DNA of 36,602 bases from Opitutales bacterium. Lineage in GTDB: Bacteria > Verrucomicrobiota > Verrucomicrobiia > Opitutales > Oceanipulchritudinaceae. Position numbers and translations under genes: made by a program. The stretch covers positions 1 through 36,602 of the forward strand of contig JAFIGG010000037.1 in assembly GCA_020831485.1 (NCBI GenBank), read 5' to 3'. The notes beneath the pieces are model-generated. The model ran no database searches. It was given only the letters and a program-made list of their open reading frames with translations, and was not told the origin of the DNA. Positions 10,436 through 13,220 of this stretch are shown here, piece after piece; position 1 is the first letter of the stretch; every line of letters begins with the position of its first letter.

Positions 10436-12313
10436 ATGAGCAATCCAACATTCCAACTCCCCGACAATGCACCTTTTCGTCACGAGCAAAAGGTCGCACT
10501 GGGGGCCCTTGTTCCAACTCTGAGCGCCCAGCAGGCGTCCTGGTTGAGCGGCTATTTTGCCGCCGTTGCCCAGGCCTCCGGGGATGTCGTCACGGCGGCT
10601 GCTCCCGCTCCGGCTGCTCCCGCCGCTCCGAAACCGACCGTGCCCTTGACGGTTCTGTATGGCTCGGAATCCGGTAACTCCGAGGCCTGTGCCCAGGAGG
10701 TTTTAAAGGAAGCGGTTGCCGCCGGCTTCAAGGCTGAGGCAATCGATATGGGCGATTACAATCGCGAAAAGCTGGCCAAGGAAAAGCACCTGCTGGTCGT
10801 TGTGAGCACCTGGGGCGAGGGCGATCCACCGGAAAACGCGACCGATTTTTACGAGTTTGTAATGGGCGATGCCGCGCCGAAACTGGATGGACTCAAGTTC
10901 TCGGTTTGTGCTTTGGGCGATACCAGCTATGCGGACTTCTGCGAGTGCGGAAAACAGTTCGACAAGCGTTTTGAAGAGCTGGGAGGTACCCGCATTCTTG
11001 ATCGCGTTGACTGCGATGTTGATTACGAAACACCTTTTAAGGAGTGGCTCAAGGCAGCGATGCCGAAGATGGTTGAGCTTTCCGGAGTCAAGGAAGCGAA
11101 GGCCGAAGCCGACGCTGCCGCGGTGGCCGCGATGCCCGCCGTTTCAGTCGTTTCCGAAGGTCTGGCGACCGTTCCCACTGTGGAGCCCTATGGCAAAAAG
11201 AATCCTTTCCAATCAGAGCTGAAGAACCGTATTCTGCTCAATGGCCGAGGCTCTGCGAAAGAAACCTACCACCTTGAATTCTCGCTCGAAGGCTCCGGCC
11301 TAAGCTACAAGCCCGGCGATGTTCTGGGCATGTTCCCAACCAATTGCGAAGATGTGGTTGAGGCTGTGGCGCGGTCTGCCGGTTTCCGCGGCGATGAGAT
11401 TCGCGAGGATGAAAGTGGAGAGGTTCGCTCAATCCTGGAGATCCTCGAAACAGACTACGACATCACTACGCTGAATGCGAACCTGTTAAAGAAGTACCAG
11501 CCGACGGCTAAGTCCAAGGCACTCGACGACCTGCTGAAGCCCGACCACAAGGATAAATTGTCGGCATATCTTCACGGTCGTGAACTGCGCGACATGTTTG
11601 CCGATTTTCCACCGGCCGATGTGCTTTCGATGGATCAGTTCCTGGGCCTGCTGCGCAAAATGCCACCCCGGTTGTATTCGATCGCTTCGAGCATCAAAGC
11701 CCATCCGGACGAAGTGCACCTCACAGTGGGTGTTGTGCGTTACGAGACTCATGGCATAAGCCGCAAGGGGGTTTGCTCCTCCTACATGGCGGAGCGCCTG
11801 GCGGTTGGCGATGCCGCGCCGATCTATCTGCACCACAACAAGAATTTCTTCCTGCCGGAAGATCCCAACACCCGCACAATTATGGTCGGACCGGGTACCG
11901 GTATCGCCCCTTTCCGCGCATTTATCGAGGAGCGGGCGGAGATCGGGGCGAAGGGCGACAACTGGTTGTTCTTTGGAGACCAGCACTTCAACAGCGACTT
12001 CCTCTATCAACTGGAATGGCAGGACTACATGAAAAAGGGAATCCTGTCCCGAATGGACGTGGCCTTCTCGCGCGACACCGATGAAAAGGTCTATGTCCAG
12101 CACCGCATGACGGAGCAGGCGAAGGACCTCTACACCTGGCTCGAAGAGGGTGCTTACTTCTACGTTTGTGGCGATGCCAGCCGCATGGCCAAGGATGTGC
12201 ATGAGGCCCTGATTGGCGTTTATCAGACTCAGGGCGGTTTGTCGCGTGAGGCGGCGGAGGACAAGGTCAAACAATTGCAGAAAGACAAGCGCTACCAGCG
12301 CGACGTTTACTGA
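10436..12313 (+). CDS. CysJ-like NADPH-dependent diflavin reductase (sulfite reductase flavoprotein family)
   Basis: This 625-aa soluble protein is built like the sulfite reductase flavoprotein CysJ. The N-terminal helix has QASWLSGYFAA (about 34-44), followed by an Ala/Pro linker (53-69). A flavodoxin-type FMN domain follows (about 71-210; LYGSESGNSE and STWGEGDPPENA). The FAD domain with its connecting region has RLYSIASS at 412-419. The NADPH domain has GPGTGIAPFRAF from 485 and YVCGDASRMAKDVHEAL, and the chain ends in an aromatic residue (Y625). Such proteins pass electrons from NADPH through FAD and FMN to a partner, usually the sulfite reductase hemoprotein. No cysI/sir gene is here. 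The gene sits 23 nt after gltB, so it may reduce glutamate synthase or a carrier for it. That role is inference. Confidence 0.9.
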   Translation: MSNPTFQLPDNAPFRHEQKVALGALVPTLSAQQASWLSGYFAAVAQASGDVVTAAAPAPAAPAAPKPTVPLTVLYGSESGNSEACAQEVLKEAVAAGFKAEAIDMGDYNREKLAKEKHLLVVVSTWGEGDPPENATDFYEFVMGDAAPKLDGLKFSVCALGDTSYADFCECGKQFDKRFEELGGTRILDRVDCDVDYETPFKEWLKAAMPKMVELSGVKEAKAEADAAAVAAMPAVSVVSEGLATVPTVEPYGKKNPFQSELKNRILLNGRGSAKETYHLEFSLEGSGLSYKPGDVLGMFPTNCEDVVEAVARSAGFRGDEIREDESGEVRSILEILETDYDITTLNANLLKKYQPTAKSKALDDLLKPDHKDKLSAYLHGRELRDMFADFPPADVLSMDQFLGLLRKMPPRLYSIASSIKAHPDEVHLTVGVVRYETHGISRKGVCSSYMAERLAVGDAAPIYLHHNKNFFLPEDPNTRTIMVGPGTGIAPFRAFIEERAEIGAKGDNWLFFGDQHFNSDFLYQLEWQDYMKKGILSRMDVAFSRDTDEKVYVQHRMTEQAKDLYTWLEEGAYFYVCGDASRMAKDVHEALIGVYQTQGGLSREAAEDKVKQLQKDKRYQRDVY

Positions 12314-12317
12314 GCCA

Positions 12318-13220
12318 ATGGCTATGCATCGGGAACTGGCAGCGGTGGTCCATGAACTGAAGCGTTTGCGGCGGCAGGGCGTGGATGCCATTCCGATTTC
12401 CGAGGAAACCCTTGCTCAGCTGCGCAAGCGCTTCCCAATACGGCCCCGGACAGAGCTTTCCGGGGCAGGGGGCGCCCCGCCCCCTGTTGCAGCCAGCTCA
12501 GGCCTTCCAGCCACCACAGCCAAACCCAGACCCAGTATTGCCAAGGCAAAGCCCCCTGAGCCGCAGACGCCACCGCCTCCGGTGGTAACTCTGGCGGGCG
12601 ACGATAAAAAGCCGCAATGGGAGTCGCTGAAAGAACAGGTGCTAAGTGATGCCTTTTGCCGCTCGCAGTTGAAGCCAGGGAAGAACCTCGTTTTTGGCGT
12701 TGGGTCGCTGGATGCGGATATCTTCTTTTGTGGCGAAGCCCCCGGAGCAGAAGAGGAGGAACAGTCAGAGCCCTTTGTCGGCCCAGCCGGCAAGTTGCTG
12801 ACCAAGATCATCCAGGCAATGGGTCTGAGCCGGGAGAAGGTTTACATCGGCAACATCATGAACTTTCGCCCGCCATTGCCGAGCGCGGTTGGCAATCGGC
12901 CGCCAACCCCCGAGGAAATGGCTTACTGCCTGCCTTACCTGAAGGCTCAGTTGGCCATCATTAAGCCAAAGGTCGTTGTGGCATTGGGCAAGACTGCTGT
13001 CGACGGTCTGCTCGGCCCGGATCCCAAGCGCCGCATGGGGCAGATCCGGGGTCAATGGCAGAGCTTTGAAGAAACCCCTCTGATGGCCACCTATCATCCC
13101 AGCTACCTGCTGCGAAATGAGTCCATGAAAGCCAAACGCATGGTCTGGGAAGACATGCTGCTGGTCATGGAAAAAGTCGGCCTGCCCATTTCGGAAAAAC
13201 AACAGGGGTATTTCAAGTAG
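12318..13220 (+). CDS. Family-4-like uracil-DNA glycosylase, predicted to lack the [4Fe-4S] cluster
   Basis: This 300-aa protein has a basic N-terminal helix, a Pro/Ala-rich linker (about 50-95) and a C-terminal UDG domain. The family-4 motifs are clear: CGEAPG (138-143) with [19 protein letters not shown] (179-186), VVALGKTA, and YHPSYLLR with the catalytic-loop HPS at 260-262. UDGs remove uracil from DNA in base-excision repair. Family 4 normally holds [4Fe-4S] with four cysteines. Here the only Cys residues are C114, C138 and C204. C138 is in the GEAPG strand, and the usual KCRPP cysteine is F183, so two ligands are missing. ATGs at 12318 and 12324 both fit; the first lies 4 nt after the reductase stop, so the genes are cotranscribed. 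The frame stays open further upstream inside the reductase gene, but that is only frame shadow. Confidence 0.88.

Follow-up and report, generated by a model that had tools for sequence, protein, structure and literature searches.

Family 4 uracil-DNA glycosylases (UDGs) remove uracil from both single- and double-stranded DNA and normally contain a [4Fe-4S] cluster held by four cysteines. They carry the motif A GE(A/G)PG, and their motif B is given as HPAAVL in sections of PMC10359453. According to the same sections, UdgX is defined by GEQPG together with a KRRIH loop and reportedly contains a [4Fe-4S] cluster, and family 5 has GLAPA as its motif A. The roles of the [4Fe-4S] cluster in DNA glycosylases are debated, and excerpts of PMC9266487 name structural support, a DNA-binding switch and DNA-mediated redox signalling. 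As far as excerpts of PMC5295032 go, disruption of the cluster in family-4 and family-5 UDGs lowers activity without abolishing it, and the family-5 enzyme becomes less stable. In the titles and abstracts of open-licence papers we found no report of a natural cluster-free family-4 UDG, which we take as weak evidence. MutY belongs to another fold superfamily (HhH-GPD), and Trasvina-Arenas is said to have reported in 2016 MutY homologues, also DNA glycosylases, without the [4Fe-4S] cluster.

We examined a UDG gene in a window of 36,602 nucleotides (the whole stretch of DNA that was analysed) from an Opitutales bacterium. The gene occupies 12318..13220 on the plus strand, as do all of its parts given below, and encodes a family-4-type UDG of 300 residues without a full cluster site. 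Translation more likely starts at Met3 (12324) than at the first ATG (12318), because many relatives among the matches listed begin at the equivalent of MHRELAAV. The protein scores 157.9 bits with TIGR00758 (UDG family 4, cut-off 125.3) and matches PF03167 at 2e-37. It does not reach the cut-off of TIGR03914 (UdgX, 126.7 against 189.95) and is also below the cut-off of the archaeal type-4 model.

Among solved structures, T. maritima TM0511 and T. thermophilus UDGa are its nearest relatives. An AlphaFold2 model built from 77 sequences (mean pLDDT 92.1) superimposes on TM0511 (1vk2) with a Z score of 27.9 and an rmsd of 1.6 over 187 aligned residues. The overlaid stretch, residues 94–289, includes the metal-site region, and the UDG domain is placed from this superposition at residues 97–290 (12606..13187). 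The predicted fold is that of family 4 (Z 25–28 with TM0511, UDGa and S. tokodaii UDG), and it is equally recognizable in M. smegmatis UdgX (Z about 25–27). BdiUNG from Bradyrhizobium diazoefficiens shares the superfamily fold, with only 14–15% identity and a Z of 14.0. The original prediction stated that GEAPG and HPS are retained, and both can be read in the translation and alignment, at residues 139–143 (12732..12746) and 260–262 (13095..13103), respectively. From residue 260 onward, HPSYLLR has the same letters as TM0511, and the RP..NR.P..E loop is likewise of the family 4 type. In contrast, the GEQPG and KRRIH signatures of UdgX are absent, and GEAPG differs from the GLAPA of family 5 (UDGb). 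Like the window protein, UdgX has lost cysteine 3 of the cluster site, with a His aligned there. Second copies in three genomes of the order of the window (L267, L268 and L269) score above the UdgX model cut-off and also have His at site 3.

The window protein departs from family 4 in three respects. It lacks two of the four cluster cysteines, has a longer loop between sites 3 and 4 (a feature shared with four-cysteine relatives of the class), and carries in addition an N-terminal helix–linker and a C-terminal Q-x-x-Y-F tail. Because the four cysteines are not all present, we class it as a cluster-poor lineage of family-4 descent rather than as a standard member. We regard it as a genuine variant, ancient and widespread, of an enzyme family already known, belonging to family 4 by descent and not by cofactor.

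Only three cysteines, C114, C138 and C204, occur in the window protein. When it is aligned with TM0511 and UDGa, the four columns that hold the cluster cysteines in these enzymes read D111 (12648..12650), C114 (12657..12659), F183 (12864..12866) and C204 (12927..12929). Cysteine 1 is replaced by an aspartate and cysteine 3, that of KCRPP, by an aromatic residue, with cysteines 2 and 4 kept. C138 (12729–12731), immediately before motif A (FFCGEAPG), lies outside the cluster columns. The alignment therefore bears out the expectation that C114 and C204 are the only possible ligands, that the KCRPP cysteine corresponds to F183, and that the N-terminal CxxC has a single cysteine.

In a first set of 140 loci, cysteine 3 was replaced, mostly by Trp, in most relatives. 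The class was then sampled further, and 269 of 270 loci yielded a readable homologue; L160, where no matching ORF was found, was dropped. After 16 duplicate sets had been merged and seven rows with gaps at the sites dropped (L081, --CC; L265 and L270, --WC; L266, --WA; L267–L269, --HC), 247 rows entered the tree. The 246 compared rows leave out L142, which is the window again, and divide into 112 with CCCC, including the two solved proteins and one duplicate pair that was not merged (L133 and L197), and 134 without cysteine 3. The rows are a sample of the genomes with a match, among the matches listed, and represent the phylum plus the two solved proteins; relatives were placed by kinship labels and named loci. 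Counts at single positions are given over 135 cluster-poor rows, in which the window is counted twice (as WIN and L142). By this count, 95 of 135 cluster-poor rows have a cysteine at position 138, against 0 of 112 four-cysteine rows.

The loss of cysteine 3 is shared throughout the close relatives. It is absent from all 46 other rows from genomes of the order of the window and from all 46 rows of loci named Opitutales or Puniceicoccales (92 other rows of the order together), and likewise from the four named Akkermansiaceae rows. The 14 rows of the same family read CCWC (8), DCYC (4) and DCWC (2). The homologue alignment, which had been proposed as a check, thus returned no relative with all four cysteines among these 14 or among the 92; the four-cysteine rows other than the two solved proteins belong to other families of the class or to other parts of the phylum. 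The idea of a cluster-free subfamily holds for the missing cysteine 3, which is general, but not for the missing cysteine 1, which 8 of the 14 same-family rows retain. The canonical four-cysteine cluster does appear impossible in this subfamily, and the four-cysteine rows lie outside the main cluster-poor clade; however, 62 of the 134 rows still have three cysteines, and a modified cluster or another metal could therefore persist in some of them.

The residue found at site 3 in the 134 rows is Trp in 101, Phe in 19, Tyr in 13 and His in 1. Since 133 of the 134 rows have one of the three aromatic residues there, chance or a sequencing error is unlikely. That the window merely shows recent decay, an error or a wrong alignment is hardly credible to us, even though the assembly is a draft of 142 contigs and no relative read combines Phe at site 3 with Asp at site 1. 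D-C-Y-C occurs in four genomes of the same family and D-C-W-C in another two, the sites align beside the conserved RP..NRPPT..E, and cysteine 3 is missing in 14/14 same-family and 92/92 Opitutales/Puniceicoccales rows. An error or one-off loss is rejected, as the loss is common to the relatives.

The number of losses depends on the tree. The FastTree tree of 247 rows places the loss of cysteine 3 on one branch (support 88), and masking more trait columns gives two changes at this site. A careful tree of 84 rows, which excludes L142, L234, L264, rows shorter than 150 residues and rows above an identity limit, gives three changes, and a single change is found in 0 of 200 bootstrap trees. The main cluster-poor clade contains 131 rows in the FastTree tree (support 87) and 49 in the 84-row tree (93/92), and unites Opitutales rows with Verrucomicrobiales rows. 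Additional losses, in L186 with L203 and in L258, are doubtful. Because the trees give one, two or three changes, we claim that one main loss, plus up to two small parallel ones, would describe the history of this site. An independent loss of all four cysteines in Akkermansiaceae was also considered and is rejected; most of these rows keep cysteine 4 and share the main clade.

We propose that in an ancestor of Opitutales and Verrucomicrobiales the cysteine of KCRPP was replaced by an aromatic residue, which probably occupies the vacated space of the cluster. The filled space would keep the DNA-contacting loop between sites 3 and 4 (F183-RPP...NRPPT..E-C204) folded. Every cluster-poor row has R194, P196 and E200 in this loop, and 134 of 135 (window counted twice) have R184. 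With the cluster gone, the other ligands would no longer be needed as a set and could decay separately. Three cysteines are kept in 62 of the 134 cluster-poor rows, two in 44 (including the window), one in 19 and none in 9. Within these rows, the FastTree tree requires at minimum 12 changes for cysteine 1, 5 for cysteine 2 and 7 for cysteine 4. In many lineages cysteine 1 has become Asp, Asn, Ser, His or Trp; in the window it is D111, whose likely partner is Y203 (12924..12926). An Asp at position 111 goes with Tyr at 203 in 34 of 36 rows, and a Cys at 111 with Phe at 203 in 61 of 66 (window counted twice). This covariation suggests that positions 111 and 203 may touch, from few independent changes: two pairs when only well-supported branches are used and eight on all branches. 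Two other positions differ between the groups. R121 is found in 112/112 four-cysteine rows, whereas the 135 cluster-poor rows (window counted twice) have mostly Gly (78) or Arg (27); K182 is found in 111/112, against Asn in 94 and Lys in 36 of the same 135.

The retained cysteines speak against a site entirely free of a cluster: three in 62/134 rows, and cysteines 2 and 4 both present in 103/134, are more than would be expected if they had no role. The site might therefore still bind metal, as a [3Fe-4S] or an open-iron [4Fe-4S] cluster in CCWC proteins, or as Zn or Fe held by D111, C114, C204 and a further residue. The candidate for the latter is position 117, which is Gln117 in the window and His in 70 of 135 cluster-poor rows (window counted twice), compared with Leu in 111/112 four-cysteine rows. 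Cysteines 1, 2 and 4 are all present in 61 CCWC rows, and Asp, which can ligate clusters, is the commonest substitute for cysteine 1 (36 of 135, same count). UdgX, with its His at site 3, provides a reported precedent for a [4Fe-4S] cluster (sections of PMC10359453). Nevertheless, many rows have Asn, Gln, Arg, Leu or Met at position 117, and His117 does not track cysteine 1 in the few independent pairs. Moreover, cysteines 2 and 4 are each lost alone in several rows (CCWG, CCWS, CFYC, SFWC), and at the positions considered the window offers three candidate ligands at most. We therefore consider continued metal binding at this site unlikely, although the three-cysteine rows could still bind something. 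Two narrower proposals are affected by the same observations: His117 as an obligate replacement ligand is not supported, since it is variable and does not follow cysteine 1, and neither is an obligate C114–C204 pair, each member of which is lost without the other.

Catalysis, in the mechanism that we favor of an aromatic residue replacing the cluster, would continue through an unchanged pocket formed by G139, E140, F153, N179 and H260, whose roles we take from the family. F153 of PFVG (12774..12776) is presumably the uracil-stacking position, and N179 (12852..12854) is taken to be the uracil-recognition position. The full set of five occurs in 118 of 134 cluster-poor rows and in 109 of 112 four-cysteine rows. 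At least one of them is altered in the other 16 cluster-poor rows; in the window all five are unchanged. One genus (family code f23) has a divergent second copy (L259, L261, L262 and L263) that has no cluster cysteines and in which the pocket reads T-D-L-H-N instead of G-E-F-N-H, and judging from these residues it is probably not a standard UDG.

Such altered pockets, the four T-D-L-H-N copies among them, raise the question of whether the window protein could have a UDG fold without uracil excision, acting as a DNA-binding or specialized protein in the manner of UdgX or Brig1. Proteins of the UDG superfamily with other targets do exist, as excerpts of PMC11078745 describe for Brig1. This explanation seems improbable for the window, where the pocket is intact as in 118/134 rows, the UdgX cut-off is missed, and PADLOC gave no hit for the protein at E 0.001 with a 2023 library that predates Brig1.

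The genome also argues against it. The gene is the sole PF03167 gene found in the genome of the window (96.8% complete, draft of 142 contigs). Family-1 Ung (TIGR00628) had no match anywhere in this genome, and none for the window protein at E 0.001. Consequently, no known UDG would remain if the activity had been lost, although another UDG could be missed at 96.8% completeness. In G005, a genome of the same family that is 98% complete, the sole PF03167 match is a weak one (E 4.3e-9), which indicates that the UDG gene can be dispensable, and several same-family genomes have a second, weaker PF03167 match. Within the family, then, this enzyme can be accompanied by another or be missing.

Two SufB/D-type genes are present in the genome of the window, together with a gene for a MutY-like protein. 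This protein scores highest with TIGR01084, at 270.1 bits against a cut-off of 286.5 that it does not reach, and has four cysteines in the arrangement C-x6-C-x2-C-x5-C. The organism thus can make clusters, and another of its glycosylases probably contains one; the loss therefore seems confined to the UDG enzyme. Taking pocket conservation, genome context and the literature on cluster disruption together, we favor an active enzyme in which the packing role of the cluster has been replaced. We infer, with a probability of about 0.77, that the window protein is an active UDG that descends from family 4 and functions in the absence of a [4Fe-4S] cluster.

The clade that lost the cluster naturally and its four-cysteine relatives in the class form a set of matched proteins for testing the role of the cluster, against a cellular background in which SUF and a four-cysteine MutY-like protein are retained. 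If signaling were indispensable for the UDG enzyme, whole families should not have lost the cluster. It is also conceivable, as a speculation to which we attach a low likelihood, that CCCC, CCWC, DCWC, WAFC and none form a graded series. CCWC proteins would then carry a labile, open-sited or three-iron cluster through which uracil repair senses oxygen or redox state, and lineages like that of the window would have an aromatic plug and a D111–Y203 contact instead.

The Nth protein in the genome of the window (L271:1345-2043, minus strand) scores above the TIGR01083 cut-off and has its cysteines spaced as C-x5-C-x6-C-x2-C, and those of L279, L284 and L287 read C-x4-C-x4-C-x2-C (the motif is unreadable in several other loci). 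The usual spacing is C-x6-C-x2-C-x5-C. The cluster site of Nth thus seems, from the spacing of these motifs, to be rearranged in the order of the window.

A cysJ-type sulfite reductase flavoprotein gene (10436–12313) ends 4 nt upstream of the first ATG of the UDG gene, and this short distance suggests that the two are co-transcribed. A conserved operon with cysJ is rejected: at E 1e-10 and within the flanks, neither cysJ nor the downstream ABC gene lies beside the UDG gene in 80 named loci. Weak ABC matches (26–29% identity) occur near the UDG gene in three other loci (L123, L128 and L136).

The N-terminal extension begins with predicted helices at residues 2–19 and 29–38 (12321..12431), followed by a Pro/Ala-rich linker at residues 39–96 (12432..12605). 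The linker has low pLDDT, about 51–65 for residues 41–70, and a Pro plus Ala fraction of 0.43 over residues 43–95. The basic helix and Pro-rich linker of about 100 residues in the original prediction correspond to an extension of about 95 residues in total, of which the linker alone accounts for only about 55. Nor are they peculiar to cluster-poor proteins. The helices are conserved in the cluster-poor rows, and an N-terminal profile made from these rows also matches 29 of the 50 four-cysteine class relatives with enough upstream sequence (3 of 23 in the rest of the phylum), and Pro/Ala-rich linkers occur among cluster-poor and four-cysteine proteins alike.

At the other end, a conserved tail of 13 residues (13179..13217) carries a Q-x-x-(Y/F)-F motif, which to us resembles, in its letters only, a beta-clamp-binding motif. 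With His accepted for Gln, it is present in 134/134 cluster-poor rows. It is found in 67 of 86 four-cysteine rows of the class, where some fetched stretches end with the match, and in 0 of 24 rows from the phylum outside the class.
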